NCBI GenBank assembly: GCA_947476485.1
Contig: CANJQU010000043.1
Coordinates: 1 to 33,126, forward strand
DNA length: 33,126 nucleotides
Origin: Chitinophagaceae bacterium
GTDB lineage: Bacteria > Bacteroidota > Bacteroidia > Chitinophagales > Chitinophagaceae
Reading direction: 5' to 3'
Positions 2,021 through 33,126 of the stretch are shown here, in pieces (position 1 is the first letter of the stretch; each line of letters begins with the position of its first letter). The translations under genes and the position numbers were made by a program. The notes beneath the pieces were generated by a model. That model was not told where the DNA came from. It made no database searches and saw only the letters and a program-made list of their open reading frames with translations.

Positions 2021-3478
2021 TTATGATTTCGTTTTTTTATCAGCTTTGTTTTTTGCCGCCCTTTCCAATATATCCATCAGGCCGGCCAATGTGGTATGGT
2101 CTATCCTTTTTCCTTTTATTATTTTCTTTTCGTCCAGCAAATATATAGTAGGTGTGCTATAAACATCATATTTTCCGCGCCAGTCACCCGAATGGTTGGG
2201 GTCCCAGGTGTTCGTCCATTCTTCCAGCTTGTTCTTGGTAATAAACTCATTAATAGCCTGTTCGCTGCCTTCTGTAGCCACGGTGAATATCTTCAATCCT
2301 TTCTTCTTCAGCACCGCTTTGTAAACGGAGTCGATACCAGGCAGCTCATGCTGGCAATGCCCGCATGTCGGAGAATAGAAAACAAGCAAAGTATACTTAC
2401 CGTTCTGGCCGAAAAGGCTTTCTTCTTTTTGCGTGGCAAGGTTTATCGTCTTTACTTCCGGGGCCAGGTTGCCGATCACGTTTGGGGCAATTTTCATAGC
2501 CCTGTCTATATATTTTTGCAGGTCATCGTTGCTCAGCCAGAAAGCATCGCCCTTCATGTAGTAGTTCTCTACCAGGTACACAAATACTTCATCAATGCCC
2601 ATTACCTTGCTGTTCTCCACATAGCGGGTCAGCCACCAAAGTGTGTATTTGAACATTTCACGGGTGCCCTTCGCTTTCCCGAGCAGATAATCACTTTCTT
2701 TTTTCAGGCTGTCCGGCCACGGATAAACCAGCTTGTTCACATACTCGTCCAGCTTGGCGTCATAGATAGGCGTATGTATTAGCCGGTCATCCTGGAAATT
2801 AAAATCATCCCAGAAGTGCGACTTATAATAACTGTATGCGAAATTTGAATCCCGCGTGGTTCCATCGGCAAGGAAATGAGCGCCTTCCGGCACCTGCGGC
2901 ACCTGTAGCGCATTAAATATGTTGGCAAGCAGCGTATTAGGATACTTCTTTGCATAGTCGCGACGATAATTGCTCAGGTCCTTTGAGCTCGAAGCAGCCT
3001 TACTACGCAGGTCTGTACTGTCTTTTCTTGTCTTTGCCTCCTTAAATGCTTTTTGCAATTCCTGTTGCGCCGTGCCATATCCTTTCAGGAAGGTCACGTA
3101 TTGCTGGAAACGGTCATTTTCGGGCGAGTTCTTAAAGGTGATGCCTTCGGGCAGCTTTTTAACATCTGCGGTGATTGTTAGATCATCGCCCTTATTAAGC
3201 AGGAACTCGAAATAAGTATTGCGGCCGGATAGCAGCATCATGTAAATACCACCAACAAAAGCCGGATCATTTGAGTTAAAAACAGCGTTGCCGTTCTTGT
3301 CTATGCGCGCCGAATCTTTTTTGTAAATAGTAGGCAGTGTTTTTCCATAATAATGGACCAGATACACCATAGTATCTTTTACATCAGGGATTTTTAAGCG
3401 GATATGGTATCCCTCTGTAGCAGCAGATAGGTTTACAACGCCAAGCACCAGCAAGGCGATAAATATTATTCGTTTCAT
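2021..3478 (-). CDS. Secreted thioredoxin-fold protein with DUF4369/DUF5106-like N-terminus (copy 1)
   Basis: This is a 485-residue exported protein with a signal peptide at about 1-20 (MKRIIFIALLVLGVVNLSAA). Residues 21-110 resemble the DUF4369 beta-domain found before thioredoxins in Bacteroidota. Residues 110-345 form a mostly helical DUF5106-like region. Residues 350-475 are a TlpA/AhpC-type thioredoxin fold with active site C372-G-H-C375 in FYSPTCGHCQHELP and the cis-proline in YSTPTIYLL (P443). It probably acts as a periplasmic thiol-disulfide oxidoreductase; the partner is unknown. A longer frame reaches 3553, but I chose the ATG at 3478 because it starts a clean signal peptide and because a promoter-like TATTTTTG on the minus strand covers the upstream alternative. 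It is a tandem paralogue of the gene at 5049-6524, with both cysteines at the same residue numbers, and is followed after 18 bp by the parvulin gene. Confidence 0.88.
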   Translation of the reverse strand: MKRIIFIALLVLGVVNLSAATEGYHIRLKIPDVKDTMVYLVHYYGKTLPTIYKKDSARIDKNGNAVFNSNDPAFVGGIYMMLLSGRNTYFEFLLNKGDDLTITADVKKLPEGITFKNSPENDRFQQYVTFLKGYGTAQQELQKAFKEAKTRKDSTDLRSKAASSSKDLSNYRRDYAKKYPNTLLANIFNALQVPQVPEGAHFLADGTTRDSNFAYSYYKSHFWDDFNFQDDRLIHTPIYDAKLDEYVNKLVYPWPDSLKKESDYLLGKAKGTREMFKYTLWWLTRYVENSKVMGIDEVFVYLVENYYMKGDAFWLSNDDLQKYIDRAMKIAPNVIGNLAPEVKTINLATQKEESLFGQNGKYTLLVFYSPTCGHCQHELPGIDSVYKAVLKKKGLKIFTVATEGSEQAINEFITKNKLEEWTNTWDPNHSGDWRGKYDVYSTPTIYLLDEKKIIKGKRIDHTTLAGLMDILERAAKNKADKKTKS

Positions 3479-8819: not shown

Positions 8820-8827
8820 TATCTTTG
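8820..8827 (+). promoter_or_regulatory. Candidate -7 element of rlmD; decides its start codon
   Basis: The plus strand reads TATCTTTG, an exact TAnnTTTG match, the same octamer as in two of the rrn promoters of this window. No clear TTTG occurs 19-21 bp upstream (a TTCG is 25 bp away). The element overlaps the TTG at 8825 that would be the longest start of rlmD, so translation probably begins downstream at the TTG at 8858. Confidence 0.5.
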
Positions 8828-8857
8828 GCCATTCAATCTAATAATACCCATAATAAT

Positions 8858-10279
8858 TTGTCACGGAAAAAGAAGAAACAAGGGCCGCTAACGGATGTAT
8901 TGATAGAGTCGTATGCGGCCGAAGGGAAAAGCATTGCACGCCTGGAAGGTGGCAAAGTACTGTTTGTAGACAATGCAATACCTGGGGATATAGTGGATGT
9001 TGGCATCACTAAAGATAAAACCAGTTGGATGGCGGGGAGGGTGCTGCGCCTGGTGCAGCCATCTCCACAGCGCATCGAGCCATTCTGCCAGCATTTTGGC
9101 GTATGCGGCGGTTGCAAATGGCAGATGCTTCCCTATGTGCAGCAACTTGTATACAAGCAGCAGCAGGTAGCTGATCAATTAGCAAGGATCGGCCAGGTAG
9201 CTCTTCCGGAGCTGCAAACAATAATAGGCAGTCCGCATGAGCGCTATTACCGCAACAAACTTGAATTCACGTTCTCTACCAGCCGCTACCTTACCTTTGA
9301 AGAGATCACCCAGCGCGAAGAGAAAATAACGCAGCAGCCTGCACTGGGATTCCATGCTCCCGGCCTCTTTGATAAAGTAGTGGAGATACACACCTGCTAC
9401 CTGCAGCCCGAGCCGACCAATACTTTACTTACCGTAGTCCGGGAATATACGCAGGCTCATAACCTGCCTTATTATGACTTCAGGGCCCAGTATGGCTGGC
9501 TGCGGAATGTGATCATCCGCGTAGCCACAACCGGGGAAGTACTCATAAACCTGGTGATGCACCACGAAGATGAACCGAACAGGCTGGGCCTGCTGGAGCA
9601 CATAAAAGCAAACGTGCCCGGCATCACCTCGCTGAACTATACCCTCAACGGAAAGATGAACGACACCATTTACGATCAGGACGTGATCTGCTATGATGGC
9701 AAGTCCTGGATTGAAGAGAAGCTCGAAAACTTCCGTTTTAAAATATCCCCTAAATCTTTCTTCCAGACCAATACCTACCAGGCCGAAGCCCTCTATCGCG
9801 TAACACGTGAATTTGCCGGGCTTACCGGCGAGGAGACATTGTACGATCTCTATTGCGGTACCGGCAGCATCGGTATCTTTTGCTCGGCCGGCGCAAAAAA
9901 GGTGATCGGTATTGAAGTAGTGGAAGAAGCGATTAAGGATGCCTATGAAAATGCTGCATTGAACGGTCTCGATCATTGTAAATTCTACGCGGGCGATGTG
10001 GAGAAGATTTGCACCGATGCATTCTTCGAAGAGCATGGCCGCCCTGATGTGATCATCACCGATCCTCCCCGCGCAGGCATGACACCCAAACTGATACAAC
10101 AGATACTAAAAATGCGTGCACCCAAAGTTGTCTATGTAAGCTGCAACCCCGCCACCCAGGCCCGCGACCTGCAATTGCTGGACGAAGCCTATGTGATCAC
10201 AAAACTGCAGCCGGTAGATATGTTCCCGCACACACACCACATAGAGAATGTGGCGCTGTTGGAATTGAGAATGGAGTAG
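8858..10279 (+). CDS. rlmD: 23S rRNA (uracil-5-)-methyltransferase RlmD (RumA family)
   Basis: This enzyme transfers a methyl group from SAM to C5 of a uracil in 23S rRNA (U1939 in E. coli numbering). Using the start at 8858 (473 aa), the order is a TRAM RNA-binding domain (about 10-70), an iron-sulfur site with C77, C83, C86 (CQHFGVCGGCKWQ) and C180, and a SAM-binding fold with DLYCGTGSIGIF (330-341) and DPPRAGM. The catalytic cysteine is in VYVSCNPAT (C429). A 484-residue version starts at TTG 8825, but that codon lies inside a promoter-like octamer. The TTG at 8858 gives MSRKKKKQGPL, a basic N-terminus common in this family, and no ATG occurs early. Its last codons are duplicated in decayed form at 10779-10851, beyond a toxin-antitoxin pair. 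Confidence 0.92.
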   Translation: MSRKKKKQGPLTDVLIESYAAEGKSIARLEGGKVLFVDNAIPGDIVDVGITKDKTSWMAGRVLRLVQPSPQRIEPFCQHFGVCGGCKWQMLPYVQQLVYKQQQVADQLARIGQVALPELQTIIGSPHERYYRNKLEFTFSTSRYLTFEEITQREEKITQQPALGFHAPGLFDKVVEIHTCYLQPEPTNTLLTVVREYTQAHNLPYYDFRAQYGWLRNVIIRVATTGEVLINLVMHHEDEPNRLGLLEHIKANVPGITSLNYTLNGKMNDTIYDQDVICYDGKSWIEEKLENFRFKISPKSFFQTNTYQAEALYRVTREFAGLTGEETLYDLYCGTGSIGIFCSAGAKKVIGIEVVEEAIKDAYENAALNGLDHCKFYAGDVEKICTDAFFEEHGRPDVIITDPPRAGMTPKLIQQILKMRAPKVVYVSCNPATQARDLQLLDEAYVITKLQPVDMFPHTHHIENVALLELRME

Positions 10280-10323
10280 TATGTTTTATTTTTTTTGTTT
10301 AATTTTATGGAAAGACTATTTGT

Positions 10324-10521
10324 ATGGTGCATGCTCAATATATAGTGGATGGGAGCGGGAAACGGGTTTCGGTTATATTGCCTGTCAAGGACTACGAAAG
10401 TATGTTAGATAAGATCGAAGAACTTGAAGATATCCGGATATATGATGAAGTAAAGGCGAAAAACGAAAAGAGCATTTTGCTGGAAGACTACGTCAGAAAA
10501 CGCACCAGGAAACATGCCTAA
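10324..10521 (+). CDS. Antitoxin of a type II RelB/Phd-like toxin-antitoxin pair
   Basis: A 65-residue protein. The N-terminal half (QYIVDGSGKRVSVILPVKDYESML) matches the beta-strand then helix DNA-binding region seen in small Phd/YefM- or RelB-like antitoxins of Bacteroidota. The C-terminal half is charged and helical (IEELEDIRIYDEVKAKNEKS), as expected for the toxin-wrapping part. Its last 8 bp overlap the start of the RelE-like gene at 10514, the usual arrangement of such pairs. It starts 44 bp after the rlmD stop. A TATTTG with a TTTG 19 bp upstream (10294-10297 and 10317-10322) could be its promoter. The antitoxin appears intact although the toxin is broken. The subfamily (RelB versus Phd) cannot be fixed by eye. 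Confidence 0.75.
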   Translation: MVHAQYIVDGSGKRVSVILPVKDYESMLDKIEELEDIRIYDEVKAKNEKSILLEDYVRKRTRKHA

Positions 10522-10771
10522 ATACATCGTTACGATCTCTAAGTCTGCAGAAAAACAATTAGACAAACTGCCAGACGCTGTAGCCGCTAAAATCATCAAT
10601 GTCCTCTGGAAACTGGCGGAAAATCCACGTCAACATGGAAGTAAAAAACTAACAGACAGACAAGGTTACAGGTTCTGAAAAGGGGACTACAGGATTATCT
10701 ATGACATCTATGACAAGGTCCTGATTATTGATGTGATTTCGGTGGGAAACAGGCGAGATGTCTATGACTAG
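10514..10771 (+). pseudogene. RelE/ParE-superfamily toxin gene interrupted by an in-frame TGA
   Basis: The frame opens with ATG at 10514, overlaps the antitoxin by 8 bp, and reads MPKYIVTISKSAEKQLDKLP, the typical RelE N-terminus. It continues to GYRF, then meets TGA at 10676-10678 (codon 55). The same frame then resumes as KGDYRIIYDIYDKVLIIDV and VGNRRDVYD, ending at TAG 10769-10771. In RelE relatives this position is normally a basic residue in the strand GYR(x)R(x)GDYRIIY. A single C to T change (CGA to TGA) would explain the stop. The full frame would give 85 residues, normal for the family; the truncated 54-residue product lacks the C-terminal strands and conserved Arg and Tyr residues needed for ribosome-dependent mRNA cleavage, so it is probably inactive. 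A sequencing error is the main alternative. Confidence 0.82.
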
Positions 10772-10778
10772 ATACTAA

Positions 10779-10851
10779 CTGCAGCTAGTTGATATGGTGC
10801 TACACACATGAGATAGAGAATGTGGAACTGCAGAACAATAAAATCAGGTAA
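10779..10851 (+). pseudogene. Decayed second copy of the rlmD 3' end
   Basis: Right after the toxin remnant, codons from 10779 read LQLVDM, then, after a 2-nt deletion, YTHEIENVELQNNKIR and a TAA. The last codons of rlmD (from 10205) read LQPVDM, FP, HTHHIENVALLELRME and TAG. The two align codon by codon to the same end point, and the central ATAGAGAATGTGG block of 13 bp is identical. The remnant is too diverged to be a recent tandem copy. It looks like the former 3' end of an rlmD allele displaced when the toxin-antitoxin segment arrived with a new 3' end. That history is inference; the similarity is directly visible. Confidence 0.75.
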
Positions 10852-10866
10852 TTTTTTGGAGCGTAG

Positions 10867-10887
10867 AGACGTTGCATTGCAACGTCT
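10867..10887. repeat. Perfect palindrome (10-bp arms), dispersed-repeat type
   Basis: AGACGTTGCA and TGCAACGTCT are exact reverse complements separated by one T. Short palindromes of this GAGACGTTGCA type are, from memory, frequent in intergenic DNA of Bacteroidota. It lies between the rlmD remnant and the 3' end of the serine hydrolase gene. There is no T run on either side, so it is not a standard terminator. Confidence 0.7.
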
Positions 10888-10945
10888 TAAGTGTAATACT
10901 GTATGATTGGATCATTACCGGAATTCACATATCCAAAATGCTTAT

Positions 10946-12154
10946 CTACTCTTCAGTATCAAACCCATCCTCAAGGTCTGATCCTCTTACGATGCTGTAA
11001 ATAACCGGCGCCTGGTGGTAAATAGCCTTGTTGAATTTGTTTCCCAGTACCACAATGGTCATATTTTCTTTGATAAAGCGGTAGAATGACGTGTTATTGC
11101 CGTGCCACCATCCATTATGATAGATCACCTTGTTGCCGTTGGGGTAGCATAGCATACGCCAGCCAAGGCCGTAGTTTTTTACGCCGGGCCGCTCAAAGGA
11201 ACATGGGCCGTAGGCAAGTTCTATGGTCTCGTTGCTCAATAGCTTGTTCTGGTAAAACGACTGATCCCAGCGATACATATCTTCAGGTGTACTGTAAATT
11301 CCCTTATCTCCGGTCACTCCGTCGGCAAACATATCTGGTTCGCGCATCCAGTTATAAGCATAGCTGATGGCAGCCGCAGCAGGCAGCCCGCTGGCGGGAT
11401 TGTAGACAAAAGTATGTGACATGCCCAGCGGCTGAAAAATGTACTTCGACATAAAATAACCGAAGTTCATTTCTGTTACACGCTCTATCAACACAGCTAG
11501 CACCGCGAAGTTGGTATTACAGTATTTAAATCCGCTATTGGGCTTCGACTCCAGCCTGGGTTTACGTTGAGCCATCATCGCCATCATCTGTGTGTTCGTG
11601 ATAGGTATAGACAATTCCCTGTCGTAGTTAGGCACCCACTTCGTATAGTCGGGCAAGCCGGAACGGTGGTTGAGCAGCATTCTTACTGTAATATTTGGGT
11701 ATGGAAATTCCTTCACATACTGCTGCACTTTTTCATCCAGGTTTATGTATTTATGCTCATACAGGTATAGCACGGCAGCGCCTGTAAACGTCTTCGAAAC
11801 CGATGCAAGCTGGCAGGATGAATTGGGAGACAATGGTATTTTGTGCTCCCTGTTTCCAAATCCGAAATACCGCTCGTAAATGATCTTCCCTTTATTAGCC
11901 ACAAGCACGCTCCCGTTGAACCCCGCTCTTACCTGTTTGCTGTAGTAATTATCAAGCTGAGCTATTATGTTTCTGCTGTTGGCGCTGGCAGTGTCATACT
12001 GCAACGCGATCACCGGGGCTTTGATCGGTGTTTCATGAAATTTACCACTTGGACGGGCAGATGCCGGTTCTGATACAGAATGGCAGGCAAGGAGTAAAAA
12101 GGATAAAACAGTTATAGCTATATAAGAAGGTGTAAAACGCATATCTAATCGCAA
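10946..12154 (-). CDS. Serine hydrolase lipoprotein, class C beta-lactamase/penicillin-binding fold
   Basis: A 402-residue protein with a lipoprotein signal peptide (LSFLLLAC, lipidated C24), so probably attached to a membrane facing the periplasm. The beta-lactamase-related catalytic motifs are present in order: S118-V-S-K121 (nucleophile and general base), Y211-C-N213, and H346-N-G348 in place of the K-T-G triad. A helical region between them includes LLNHRSGLPDY, a block found throughout this family. Members act as D-amino acid peptidases, esterases or are uncharacterised; true beta-lactamase activity cannot be inferred. A second ATG five codons in (MRFTPSY) is an equally plausible start. 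The next gene upstream on this strand (12179-12766) is 24 bp away, so the two may be co-transcribed. Confidence 0.9.
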   Translation of the reverse strand: MRLDMRFTPSYIAITVLSFLLLACHSVSEPASARPSGKFHETPIKAPVIALQYDTASANSRNIIAQLDNYYSKQVRAGFNGSVLVANKGKIIYERYFGFGNREHKIPLSPNSSCQLASVSKTFTGAAVLYLYEHKYINLDEKVQQYVKEFPYPNITVRMLLNHRSGLPDYTKWVPNYDRELSIPITNTQMMAMMAQRKPRLESKPNSGFKYCNTNFAVLAVLIERVTEMNFGYFMSKYIFQPLGMSHTFVYNPASGLPAAAAISYAYNWMREPDMFADGVTGDKGIYSTPEDMYRWDQSFYQNKLLSNETIELAYGPCSFERPGVKNYGLGWRMLCYPNGNKVIYHNGWWHGNNTSFYRFIKENMTIVVLGNKFNKAIYHQAPVIYSIVRGSDLEDGFDTEE

Positions 12155-20669: not shown

Positions 20670-23600
20670 CTACTTTTCTATTACAAAGTGGAATACAGCA
20701 TGTTCTGCTTCGTTGTTGACATTCAACAGGTACATGCCGTTTGCAAGGTCGTTGCTTAATGTTACCTGTTCATTGATCACTCCGCCCGGTGCGGTAGTTT
20801 TACCGACAAAAATGATTTGACCGAGCATGTTAGTTATTTCATAACGCAACAGCCTGTCATCAGGTGTTCCCAATGTTCCCTTGATCATAAACGCGCCTTT
20901 GTTTGGGTTGGGTACTAAGCTTACATGCATTGGCGCCGGATTGATCAGCAGGGAAGTAACTGTAATAGAAGCGCTTCCCTCGTCGGTGATCGCAGTATGA
21001 GTGATGTTCACATTGCCTGCTGCCAGGGCGGTGACGGTACCATTTTCGTCAACGGCGGCTACTGCATTGTCGCTACTGGTCCATTCACCTGCTGCAGCAT
21101 CATTGGCGAGGCTAATTACGGCGCCCACAGTGGTTGTGCTGCTAGTGGCCCGTGGTGCAGGGCTTGCGCTGATAACTTTTGTCGCAAAATTGCTGCACCC
21201 TGCACTGGTCGTAACAATATAGTTGATGTTAGCGTTGCCTGACGATGTGATAGCTGTAACCAGCCCTGTGCCGCTGCCCACGGTGAGTATTGCGGTATTG
21301 CTGCTGCTCCATACGCCTCCTGCAGTTGCGTCAGTCAAGGTGATACCCGCACCGCCACGGGAAACGGACGAAGGGCCGGAGATCGCCAATACTGTTGGTG
21401 TCGTGTTCACAGTTACTATAGCAGTTGCGGTGCACAAATTGGTGTGTGTGTACGTAACTATTGTTGTTCCTGCCGACACTCCGCTCACAGCGCCGGAAGC
21501 GTTGATGGTTGCCACGGCCGGTGTGCCGCTCGTCCAGGATACGCCTGGGGTGCTCGGGTCGCTAAGGAAAGTTACTTTTCCGGTGCAAACGTTGCGGTTG
21601 CCCAGGATGGCTGCCGGTGCGGCATTTACATTCACATTGTAAGTTTTGAGGCACCCGGTACCGGCAGTGTAGGTGACTAATATAGCTCCCGCAGCAAGAC
21701 CGGTCACTATCCCGGAAGCGTTTATGGATGCGTATGAGTTGGAGCCGCTCCATACACCGCCCGCTGTGGCGTCGGTGAGTGTTATGGACAAGCCGGTGCA
21801 AACTTTATTAGGCCCTGTAATGGCTGCCGGATTTGCATTGATAGTTACAATCTTCGAAGCCTTGCAGCCCGTTGTACCCAAAGAATAATTTATGGTCACC
21901 ATTCCTGTGTTGATGGTTGTTACTAATCCTCCCGCACTTACAGTAGCGGTCGATGGACTTGTGCTGCTCCATACGCCACCGGCTGTAGCGTCAGAGAGCG
22001 AAGTTGTTGCGCCCTGGCATACGCTGGCATTGCCGGAAATTGCCGCAGGCACCGGATACACGGTAAGTGTCTGCGTGGCATAAGATGACCCCACTGTATA
22101 GCTGAGCCGTGCAGTGCCGGCAGCAATAGCCGTTACCACGCCTCCGGAGCTAACCGATGCTATTGCGGCATCTGCAGCATTAATGCTCCATGCGCCGCCG
22201 GGAGTCGCGTCGAAAAATGTGCCGGTATTGCCTGCACACATAAAGAACGCCGCACCGGTAATTGCAGATACCGTAACCGGTGTGCCGGCATTTACTGTCA
22301 CTACCTTTGTAGTATAATCCCAGCCACAGCCGTTGGTAACGGTGTAAGAAATAGTGACCGTGCCGGTGGATACTCCATGTACCGCTCCTGCGCCGGATAC
22401 TGTGGCGTTGCCGTTGCTGGCAGACCATACGCCGCCCGCGGTAGCATTGCTAAGCGTTATGTTTGCTCCTGCATTCACAGTGGATGGTCCGGTGATAGTG
22501 CCGGCTGTTGGTGGCCCTGAGCTCACAACAACCGTAGCGGTAGTATATCCGCCCAGCACGGTGTAGGTAAGTGTGGCGGTGCCTGCCGATATGCCCTGTA
22601 TATAAGCTTTGAAGTTGTAGATGCCAGTATATGCGATAGCTACAGAACTGTCGCTGCTGGTCCACCGTCCCTGTGGGGTAGCCGCGGCAAACGAATCCAT
22701 AACAACGGTACAGCCTAGTGCAGTGCCGGTAAGAAGGCCGAGAGGTTGATTCCTTAGCACGGAGATATTCCCGGTGCCTGAATAATCAGAATAGTTGGAA
22801 ACAGCCACATCAGGTTTGCCGTCGCCGTCCAGGTCGCCAACCGCTACCGTCGAAGATTGCGAGCCTGAGTAAAATGGATGACTTACTGTATCAAAAGACA
22901 AAGAACCGGTAGAAGAAGTATTTCGCAGAACGGAAAGGTTATAGCCATTAAATGTGCTGATGATCAGGTCCGGGCGTGTGCCACCGGCCATGCTTGCTAT
23001 TGCCACTGCGGATGGACTCATTCCGGTCTGGAAAATTGCTCCTGGGGCAAATGCTATTGATCCGGTCGACGAAGTATTTCGCAGTACAGATACAGACCCC
23101 GTATCCGTATATGAGCTGCCTATGTTTGTAACTGCGAGCTCAGGCTTTCCATCTCCGTCAAGGTCACCGATGGCAACATTGGTTGGCGCTTCACCTACAG
23201 CGAAGAGCTGTTTCGTAGCAAATGAGATCGTGCCTGTGGTAGAGATATTGCGTAAAACCACTACCTGGTTATGGCCGTGCGAATTCGTCGCAAGGTCTTT
23301 CTTTCCGTCTCCGTCCAGGTCGCCAATTGCCAGGTACCCACCGCTGTTATAACCCATAAATCCGCCGGTTCCGGTAGCATCAACATAAGTGTATGTGTCA
23401 AATGACAGTGCTCCCACCGAAGAGGTGTTGCGAAATGTAAACACTCCGAAATCAAAGCTGACCGCAATATCTGACCTGCCATCTCCGTCCAGGTCGCCCA
23501 CTACAACCCCGTTGGTAGTGGTAAATGGAGTAGGAATGAATAAACCTCCGGCAAAAGATATTGACCCGGGTGAAGAAGTGTTGCGATATACAGTTATGCC

Positions 23601-24353
23601 GGTATCCATATTGCTGGTTGCAACAATATCAAGCTTACCATCTCCGTCAAGGTCGCCTATTGCAAGGCTATAAGCTCCGGTGTCTGAAGGTATGCTTACC
23701 GGGCTGGCAAAAGACGATGCACTTATAGATCCGCTCACAGACGTATTGCGGAATATCAGCATCGTTTTTGTTATGAAATTTGACACAGCCATATCGGCTT
23801 TGCCATCACCATCAATATCGCCCAAAGCTATTGCCGATGGGTTGCCACCTGTAGCGTAAAACCGGGTGGTGTCAAAACTGATCACATTTCCCATGTATGC
23901 GCTGTTGTTGTATGTCGGCTGAAATTGCGGCCCTGAAAATCCCGTTAAGCCGGTTGCGCTGTTGGTTACACTCACGGGGGCGTAGGTGGCGCCTATGGGC
24001 ACGGTCACAGTGAGTGAAGTAGCGTTGCCGGACACTACACTGGCCTTTCCGGTGCCAAAGTATACTATGTTGCTGGCGGCGGTCGGATTGAAATTTGAGC
24101 CCGAGATCGTTATTGTTGTGCCCGGTGCGGCACGTGTTGCGCTTAAAGAAGAAACCACGGGTGCTACTGCCGTAGCAATGGCCGTTTTACTGAAAAGGGC
24201 CAGGCATAGCATGAACAGCACAAAAAATTTGTTGCCATGCGTTCCCGCATTTGATGCTGCTTTTGTACCACTTTTTCCGTGCAGGCTATGGGTATCTTCG
24301 ATACGCATAGTTGCTCCTGTGAATCTCGTTGAACGTGTAATTTGATTGGTCAT
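20670..24353 (-). CDS. Large T9SS-exported surface protein: IPT, FG-GAP/VCBS propeller, eight Ig-like repeats, type A sorting domain
   Basis: A 1227-residue secreted protein. A long basic N-region precedes the hydrophobic signal core FFVLFMLCLALF (about 43-54), cleaved near AIATA. Residues about 64-140 are an IPT/TIG domain (APGTTITISGSNF). About 155-560 hold seven FG-GAP/VCBS repeats, six with the calcium-type motif D-x-D-G-D-G (DLDGDGKPDVAVSN) and one degenerate (MAGGTRPDLIIS). About 565-1130 are eight Ig-like Big_2-type repeats with TLxDATAGGVWSS cores. The last 91 residues (INPAPMHVSLVPNPNKGAF to the end) are a type A T9SS sorting domain. Likely a cell-surface or secreted adhesin-like protein. 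The frame extends 17 codons upstream; the ATG at 24353 or the one at 24308 are the likely starts. Confidence 0.9.
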   Translation of the reverse strand: MTNQITRSTRFTGATMRIEDTHSLHGKSGTKAASNAGTHGNKFFVLFMLCLALFSKTAIATAVAPVVSSLSATRAAPGTTITISGSNFNPTAASNIVYFGTGKASVVSGNATSLTVTVPIGATYAPVSVTNSATGLTGFSGPQFQPTYNNSAYMGNVISFDTTRFYATGGNPSAIALGDIDGDGKADMAVSNFITKTMLIFRNTSVSGSISASSFASPVSIPSDTGAYSLAIGDLDGDGKLDIVATSNMDTGITVYRNTSSPGSISFAGGLFIPTPFTTTNGVVVGDLDGDGRSDIAVSFDFGVFTFRNTSSVGALSFDTYTYVDATGTGGFMGYNSGGYLAIGDLDGDGKKDLATNSHGHNQVVVLRNISTTGTISFATKQLFAVGEAPTNVAIGDLDGDGKPELAVTNIGSSYTDTGSVSVLRNTSSTGSIAFAPGAIFQTGMSPSAVAIASMAGGTRPDLIISTFNGYNLSVLRNTSSTGSLSFDTVSHPFYSGSQSSTVAVGDLDGDGKPDVAVSNYSDYSGTGNISVLRNQPLGLLTGTALGCTVVMDSFAAATPQGRWTSSDSSVAIAYTGIYNFKAYIQGISAGTATLTYTVLGGYTTATVVVSSGPPTAGTITGPSTVNAGANITLSNATAGGVWSASNGNATVSGAGAVHGVSTGTVTISYTVTNGCGWDYTTKVVTVNAGTPVTVSAITGAAFFMCAGNTGTFFDATPGGAWSINAADAAIASVSSGGVVTAIAAGTARLSYTVGSSYATQTLTVYPVPAAISGNASVCQGATTSLSDATAGGVWSSTSPSTATVSAGGLVTTINTGMVTINYSLGTTGCKASKIVTINANPAAITGPNKVCTGLSITLTDATAGGVWSGSNSYASINASGIVTGLAAGAILVTYTAGTGCLKTYNVNVNAAPAAILGNRNVCTGKVTFLSDPSTPGVSWTSGTPAVATINASGAVSGVSAGTTIVTYTHTNLCTATAIVTVNTTPTVLAISGPSSVSRGGAGITLTDATAGGVWSSSNTAILTVGSGTGLVTAITSSGNANINYIVTTSAGCSNFATKVISASPAPRATSSTTTVGAVISLANDAAAGEWTSSDNAVAAVDENGTVTALAAGNVNITHTAITDEGSASITVTSLLINPAPMHVSLVPNPNKGAFMIKGTLGTPDDRLLRYEITNMLGQIIFVGKTTAPGGVINEQVTLSNDLANGMYLLNVNNEAEHAVFHFVIEK

Positions 24354-24693
24354 GTCCTTAGTTTTTACAATGATGAAAAAAACATTTTTAGCACTGATCA
24401 GCATTATCAGGAGGATGATAGCACCGATTAAATGCTAAGCTAAAGGACATAACTGTCGCTATTTTTGCATTGTTGAGACCTTGTTGTCTTTTGTTGCAAA
24501 ACAGCTTTTTTTTGTGGAAACGAAAATCCTGGGATTGAAAAATCGAGGAAGTCTATGGTGAAATGAGCCCTGTGGGATCATCTGGCGGTAGCAAAATAAC
24601 AACAATAAGACTGCGACGCCATCGGTTTTGAATGCGCTGCGGTTAAATTGAAATCTTTAATTTAAATAGATTGGTAATCGCTGAGGATACGGA
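24354..24693. other. Intergenic stretch upstream of the surface protein gene
   Basis: About 340 bp with no coding region. No clear TAnnTTTG octamer was found on the minus strand ahead of the surface protein gene. A TGATCAGCATTATCAGGAGG run about 35-55 bp upstream of its start holds no evident function. The side near 24640-24690 is the 3' end of the DUF5684 gene's downstream region with no obvious terminator. Confidence 0.4.

Positions 24694-32589: not shown

Positions 32590-33126
<537 letters not shown>

Follow-up and report, generated by a model that had tools for sequence, protein, structure and literature searches.

A short rlmD 3'-end-like fragment beyond a probably decaying toxin–antitoxin pair, within an interval that holds a chromosome rearrangement junction

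Downstream of an intact rlmD gene and a toxin–antitoxin (TA) pair in a Chitinophagaceae bacterium, a second piece of DNA resembling the 3' end of rlmD is confirmed at the sequence level, and it lies within 175 bases that hold a rearrangement junction. Our leading, though tentative, reading is that this fragment is a piece of rlmD of about 51 bases, duplicated or inserted by templated copying at that junction. The comparison with relatives suggests a genuine but minor scar amid otherwise ordinary surroundings and lends no support to the more striking reading of the locus as a mobile element. The window, that is, the whole stretch of DNA analysed, comprises 33,126 nucleotides of contig CANJQU010000043.1; its genome (G000) is assembled in 215 contigs, and relatives carry handles of the same kind. 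The relevant features are as follows.

8825..10279, forward strand: intact rlmD, encoding 23S rRNA (uracil-C5)-methyltransferase (open reading frame; TIGR00479 rumA, 357 bits against a cut-off of 183.55)
10280..10323, forward strand: 44-base gap from rlmD to the antitoxin, resembling G005 and G013 by eye; probably the promoter region of the TA pair
10324..10521, forward strand: intact RelB/Phd-YefM-like antitoxin, 65 aa (PF18506, E 5e-6; PF02604, E 1.2e-4)
10514..10771, forward strand: ParE/RelE-superfamily toxin frame (PF05016), broken by an in-frame TGA at 10676-10678
10777..10825, forward strand: well supported part of the rlmD 3'-end-like fragment, resembling 10203-10253 with a 2-base deletion (40/49 identical)
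10826..10851, forward strand: stretch over which the fragment may continue as far as the aligned stop (12/26 identical, near chance)
10867..10887, no strand: 21-base palindrome, a dispersed repeat (own-genome pattern search)
10771..10946, no strand: interval holding the synteny junction, where the rlmD-TA side gives way to the serine-hydrolase side (gene order of relatives)
10946..12154, reverse strand: beta-lactamase/PBP-family serine hydrolase, with which the block found elsewhere in relatives begins (PF00144, E 8e-59)
32590..33126, forward strand: 16S rRNA gene, 5' part only, closing the window and, as far as the window reaches, the block (RF00177, 502.7 bits)

The end of rlmD at 10279 is as given in the preliminary description of this DNA, and an rlmD match at E up to 0.001 is present in 59 of 60 relative genomes. 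The fragment starts five bases past the last toxin stop codon and resembles rlmD DNA 0.57 kb upstream. Local alignment of the live rlmD tail with the 1,497 downstream bases gave a score of 47, against a mean of 18.6 and a maximum of 28 in 1,000 dinucleotide shuffles of that comparison. A nucleotide profile made from 26 of the 30 genus rlmD tails (four, with tails laid out differently, were omitted) was searched with nhmmer against 229 partly overlapping records totalling 1.89 Mb and found the fragment, at 10777-10831, with an E of 7.3e-6, or 9.0e-6 when the window's own tail was left out of the profile. There were 144 matches at E up to 1; among the 40 weakest, which were inspected singly, seven were the fragment itself in seven overlapping records and one other row (E 0.15) was not an rlmD end. 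A DNA search of the window's own genome with 10760-10950 returned 29 matches, namely the query itself, the live tail at 10203-10253 (51 bases, 78%, E 4e-4), the palindrome in its other copies and, at E 0.76, four weak matches, so that, besides the query and the palindrome, the live rlmD tail was the sole match under E 0.01. Based on the shuffle, profile and own-genome results, we conclude that the fragment is real; the preliminary description was thus right that the DNA past the TA pair again resembles an rlmD 3' end, and the similarity lies well clear of the level seen in shuffled sequence.

A false join in the assembly, or chance similarity, is a very improbable account of the fragment. There is a single assembly in 215 contigs with a dispersed palindrome at the junction, real DNA can beat shuffles, and one relative scored 36 in an unrelated gene; yet chance is made very unlikely by the three results above, the genes are intact on both sides and a 21-base repeat would be short for a false join. 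The score of 36, in G007 (stretch L028), was itself rejected as chance, being a gapped match inside an open reading frame (ORF) on the opposite strand that was absent among the 40 weakest profile matches. A second rlmD tail was sought downstream of rlmD in 29 relatives and none was counted, the highest scores in the stretches of the other relatives being 23 (against their own tail) and 24 (against the fragment). The fragment as such was found in 0 of these 29 rlmD-downstream stretches, four of which hold only 344-1,023 bases (344 in the TA-bearing G005); the TA-less relatives read without it, as the scar proposed in the preliminary description would predict.

The extent of the fragment is smaller than had been proposed. 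Identity is concentrated in the first 51 columns, with 40/49 identical positions there and 12/26 beyond (Fisher p 0.003). The second end can therefore be upheld for 10777-10825 with its 2-base deletion and not for the remainder, and because only 12 of 26 positions agree in this right part, a stop at the aligned position is unreliable as evidence. The identical 13-base core that had been pointed out exists (10813-10825 equals 10241-10253), but at such identity 13 matching bases in a row are nothing out of the ordinary (P 0.17, simulated at 12 mismatches in 49, the final count being 9). The palindrome beyond the fragment is likewise present but is no special feature of the locus, since it is one of 15 places in the genome (15 forward and 15 reverse matches at up to 3 mismatches, 10867-10887 included; 0 for a control pattern). 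The copy opens with a 9-base match to the live tail, AACTGCAGC, which may be part of the copy rather than its cause. Among 110 rlmD tails, the best match of the fragment is the window's own tail, tied with L201; an origin of the fragment in another lineage was considered and set aside on this ranking, for which the piece is too short to be decisive.

The junction came to light in the gene order of relatives. A serine hydrolase match at E up to 1e-80 is present in 30 of 35 genus genomes including the window's own (29 of 34 relatives), and in 28 of the 28 relatives with both genes found (those with the serine hydrolase and a strong rlmD match; rlmD is partial in G014 and without a match in G008) it is on a different contig from rlmD, although contig identity alone is weak evidence because many contigs are short. 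The 19 fetched rlmD stretches of relatives contain no serine-hydrolase match. G013 and G004 carry the genes of 10946 to about 32 kb in the same order, with few missing, up to the contig end. Two conserved genes, which we take to be PorV and PorU, lie 3' of the serine hydrolase in five of six relatives (the sixth contig ends after 246 bases) and do not adjoin it in the window. The contig of the PorV relative in the window's genome ends 1.1 kb away from it; in the flank of this gene, a stretch of 189 bases that looks repeated is 77% identical to the 5S flank of G001. From the order of the block, which is kept in relatives, and the genes on the other side of the serine hydrolase, which do not adjoin it here, a junction is placed in 10771-10946. 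No rlmD tail above a score of 24 was found beside the serine hydrolase in 14 relatives' stretches (two with <400 bases of flank), and the rlmD-tail profile, applied to 11 stretches next to 5S genes, PorV and the epimerase gene described below, gave a best match with an E of 0.023, in G004. Within the block, 20670-24434 encodes a 1,254-aa FG-GAP / Big_2 / TIG protein that carries a sorting tail for type IX secretion; this protein is without a match in the blocks of G013 and G004.

Short templated insertions at breakpoints consist of tens of bases copied from nearby at the junction, and the fragment, tens of bases from nearby, is like them. Our working hypothesis is that a rearrangement joined the rlmD-TA side to the block running from the serine hydrolase to the 16S rRNA gene, that in the joining event a replication end which had broken or stalled made a brief copy of the nearby rlmD, opening at the 9-base match, before the incoming block was joined, and that this copy decayed afterwards; the TA pair would have been inherited in place, probably since before the G005 split. 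The confinement of the similarity mainly to 51 columns, rather than its running to the end of the rlmD gene, speaks for such a copied scrap. Against it, none of the relatives shows an intact toxin at this spot with its 3' flank, since the G005 contig ends inside the toxin and G013 has no toxin. We infer that the fragment was copied when the junction formed; as it is seen in one genome only, its link with the junction is a single case, a point in which it differs from known short templated insertions. If correct, this history matters because a TA pair inherited in place, followed by a junction with a copied scrap, can mimic an element with a restored gene end without any mobile element being involved.

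A tandem duplication of the rlmD tail together with the TA pair, followed by loss of the second TA copy, would also place a second tail here, and it would suit this account that the fragment starts five bases past the toxin stop and matches the live tail over its first 9 bases. We regard it as improbable: the own-genome search with 10760-10950 shows no second TA copy after the fragment, and beside the epimerase gene displaced in this genome the similarity to the TA pair or rlmD is at shuffle level, the best case being reached by 25 of 300 shuffles.

The TA pair itself is best read as an ordinary RelB/ParE-type module, predicted from sequence, in a variable intergenic spot. It resembles type II TA systems with a ParE/RelE toxin and a RelB/Phd-YefM-like antitoxin in gene order, in its small overlapping frames (10514-10521 is shared) and in its Pfam matches, and differs from the ParE/RelE superfamily systems in that the toxin frame is interrupted and, in G013, missing. 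The antitoxin scores fall below the curated Pfam cut-offs (26.7 against 27 for PF18506 and 22.2 against 29.8 for PF02604), and the antitoxin has no NCBIfam match at E up to 0.01. The toxin frame matches PF05016 over 10529-10765 with 41.5 bits, above the cut-off of 23, with one TGA inside the match. The RelBE-like pair that had been placed at 10324-10771 is therefore there as an antitoxin with a ParE-family toxin match, but the toxin reading frame is not intact, the TGA (a real stop or a sequencing error) having been missed. Codons after the TGA differ from those of the G019 toxin mainly at third positions (7/0/21 differences by codon position in 30 codons), which argues that the stop is recent or an error. 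Intact toxin relatives are present in other genomes, and the genus holds many relatives. Because the toxin is broken in G000 and missing in G013, the best reading is that the pair is now decaying as a TA member, with the antitoxin kept. Orphan antitoxins are common elsewhere, with 2,253 occurrences in the Klebsiella pneumoniae complex according to an excerpt of PMC7192599.

In relatives, rlmD faces a convergent Epimerase_2 (UDP-GlcNAc 2-epimerase) gene in all five in which that gene was found, of seven searched (counting the window's own genome, it was sought in eight genomes and found in six). What lies between the two genes differs. G004 and G006 have rlmD followed by the convergent Epimerase_2 gene with no ORF of 70 aa between; G001 has a 354-aa ORF without a Pfam match; G013 has the antitoxin and then a 112-aa ORF without a Pfam match (stretch L042:1501-2100), the antitoxin being kept there with no toxin match at E up to 1e-9; and G020 has a CdiI_3 immunity gene (stretch L071:9041-9436; PF18616, E 2.5e-30). 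This contact-dependent-inhibition immunity gene stands alone where others have the TA pair or the antitoxin, which marks a variable spot for small cargo. In G005 the TA pair follows rlmD. Other relatives have different genes after rlmD, and in a wider collection of 80 named loci a Rhomboid domain is the commonest family after rlmD, in 53 of the 101 ORFs that were scanned out of 151 listed.

The antitoxin copies at the same post-rlmD junction are 88% (G005) and 82% (G013) identical to that of the window, and this shared position in G005 and G013 indicates that the pair probably predates the split of those species. In an rlmD tree of 13 genomes, G013 falls outside a fork of G000, G005, G001, G020 and G004 (support 96/96); G000 and G005 group at 91/89, and the arrangement of G001, G020 and G004 is weak. 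The TA-less G001, G004 and G020 thus sit inside the TA-bearing fork, which suggests loss of the TA pair, and G006, which lies outside the fork with rlmD next to the epimerase gene, may be a true empty site. Forcing the three TA-bearing rlmD rows into one clade was rejected at the borderline (p-AU 0.048). The TA genes at the same junction in G013, G005 and G000 are most simply explained by one old gain and later loss.

The divergence of the TA pair between G000 and G005 is, by third-position differences, about like that of rlmD: 16/36 for the toxin part, 15/60 for the antitoxin (3/2/15 differences by codon position in 60 codons) and 0.41 for rlmD. Under a simple neutral model, the 23 mismatches in 75 positions of the fragment compare with 0.51 expected since the G005 split (P 4e-4; P 3e-6 for the left part) and 0.58 expected since the G013 split (P 1e-6), figures that assume neutrality and draw on 49-75 bases and on synonymous distances close to saturation (dS 1.2-1.8). 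These values are suggestive of a fragment younger than the G005 split if its decay was neutral; scaled to the slow third positions of the antitoxin (0.17 expected), it looks older than that split. The last 73 bases of the live rlmD tail have identities of 0.91 to G005 and 0.79 to G013, which bear TA genes, and 0.83-0.84 to the TA-less G001, G020 and G004. By these identities the live tail resembles the tails of other species with no grouping by TA status, and G005 is the nearest row to the window's rlmD in the whole-gene tree too.

Taken together, the fragment is supported as the relic of a recombination event, but the preliminary description's further claim, that a TA pair arriving with a fresh rlmD end had left the old end as the scar, finds no support in these data. 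The antitoxin occupies the same junction in G005 and in G013, which is outside the fork; the fragment is, if neutral, too little diverged for the age of those splits; the live tail does not group by TA status; and a large rearrangement junction, invisible from the window alone, lies between the TA pair and 10946.

What survives of that idea is allele replacement, possibly of a TA-less allele by a TA-bearing one from within the species. Here, rlmD-TA DNA would have entered a TA-less strain by homology-facilitated illegitimate recombination (HFIR), recombining by homology in rlmD and joining at its far end at a short match (AACTGC...) in the resident tail, so that the old rlmD tail was left as a scar. 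We consider this unlikely, while giving it real weight. It directly yields the order of live rlmD, TA pair, old tail and old downstream DNA; HFIR with 3-10 base segments at the joint is documented in transformable bacteria, in the portion of PMC6382021 consulted, and its products could likewise show a gene end in duplicate beside a short joint. The toxin of G019 has AACTGC one base after its stop, but this motif is absent from the first 10 bases past the stop in the other 18 relatives' toxins examined. The closeness of the fragment to the window's own tail would also fit, as would a third-position divergence from G005 that is lower for the tail plus TA pair (36/117) than for the rest of rlmD (191/457; p 0.03). 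However, comparison with G013 shows such a drop as well (p 0.05), so it may reflect local constraint rather than import, and an import of the rlmD end with the TA pair from the G005 lineage was set aside on this account as the less likely reading. A sliding comparison along rlmD shows no clear mosaic break and, in contrast to the HFIR products, no donor and recipient pair was found for the window locus. Allele replacement also requires a TA-less strain of this species that already carried the new downstream block.

The 3' end of rlmD is, on the other hand, a known target of mobile elements. In streptococci, integrative and conjugative elements (ICEs) as well as prophages insert at the rum/rlmD 3' end, and Enterococcus cecorum has an island in the neighbourhood of rlmD (PMC9815147, PMC5053989, PMC8714194 and PMC10117131, as far as their excerpts go); the statement that no element of this kind was known at rlmD therefore needs correcting as regards the site. 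Two 14-base att sequences at rum, CACGTGGAGTGCGT and CACATAGAAGTTGT, are given in the same extract of PMC9815147; in our translation from the first base they read H-V-E-C-V and H-I-E-V-V, and the 13-base core of the window covers the same H-V/I-E-x-V codons. The locus might then be what remains of a site-specific integrative element that had targeted the 3' end of rlmD, with the fragment as its far attachment site and the TA pair as the last cargo. It shares with the streptococcal elements, as the excerpts of PMC9815147, PMC5053989 and PMC8714194 present them, the target gene end and a 3'-end repeat beyond the cargo; the streptococcal site is a hotspot, the cargo between rlmD and the epimerase gene differs among relatives, and G006 may be an empty site.

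We nevertheless judge a relic of this kind quite improbable. The streptococcal ICEs, in those excerpts, are tens of kb long with integrases and att repeats, whereas the window has 0.5 kb of cargo with a decayed repeat. From rlmD to the fragment, only the two TA frames look like plausible genes, and no recombinase gene was found. Neither an integrase nor another site-specific recombinase is present in any of the 24 families of the 46 genus ORFs downstream of rlmD (one of the 46 matches a Y1, IS200-like, transposase), and no recombinase was found among the first 25 of 81 families of the 101 ORFs in the wider set. What might be read as an attL/attR-type repeat around the cargo is a 51-base decayed repeat with 13 identical bases, and its similarity lies mostly left of the core and fades to the right, whereas a restored 3' end should show the reverse. 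The H-V/I-E-x-V motif is a conserved part of the protein in all 30 tails compared, no second fragment lies at the epimerase side, and the ages do not match, the fragment being apparently younger, under the neutral model, than the splits across which the TA pair is shared. The live gene end, moreover, looks ordinary and vertical rather than supplied by an element, unlike that at streptococcal elements.

A bolder version, to which we give very little credence, is that a small cassette without a recombinase rides on the rlmD 3' end among these Chitinophagaceae, keeping the gene end and leaving the old end as a scar. Incoming DNA with rlmD and cargo would pair with the resident rlmD and join at a short match in its tail, and the rlmD/epimerase spot would gather immunity-type cargo (the TA pair in G000 and G005, the antitoxin in G013 and CdiI_3 in G020). 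If true, small defence-like cassettes would have a route to spread without a recombinase.

In G000 the epimerase gene is on another contig (C54), whose end carries a 5S gene at a distance of 0.6 kb from it (L255:3387-3488, L255 being the end of C54). The window contig ends in a 16S gene and the contig of the displaced epimerase gene in this 5S gene, and an rRNA operon may join the two; in that case, the whole block would lie between the rlmD-TA side and the epimerase gene. Beside and over the 5S gene of C54, two stretches of about 138 bases (L255:3192-3329 and 3340-3477) are 70% alike, and the inner one may be a degenerate 5S copy.
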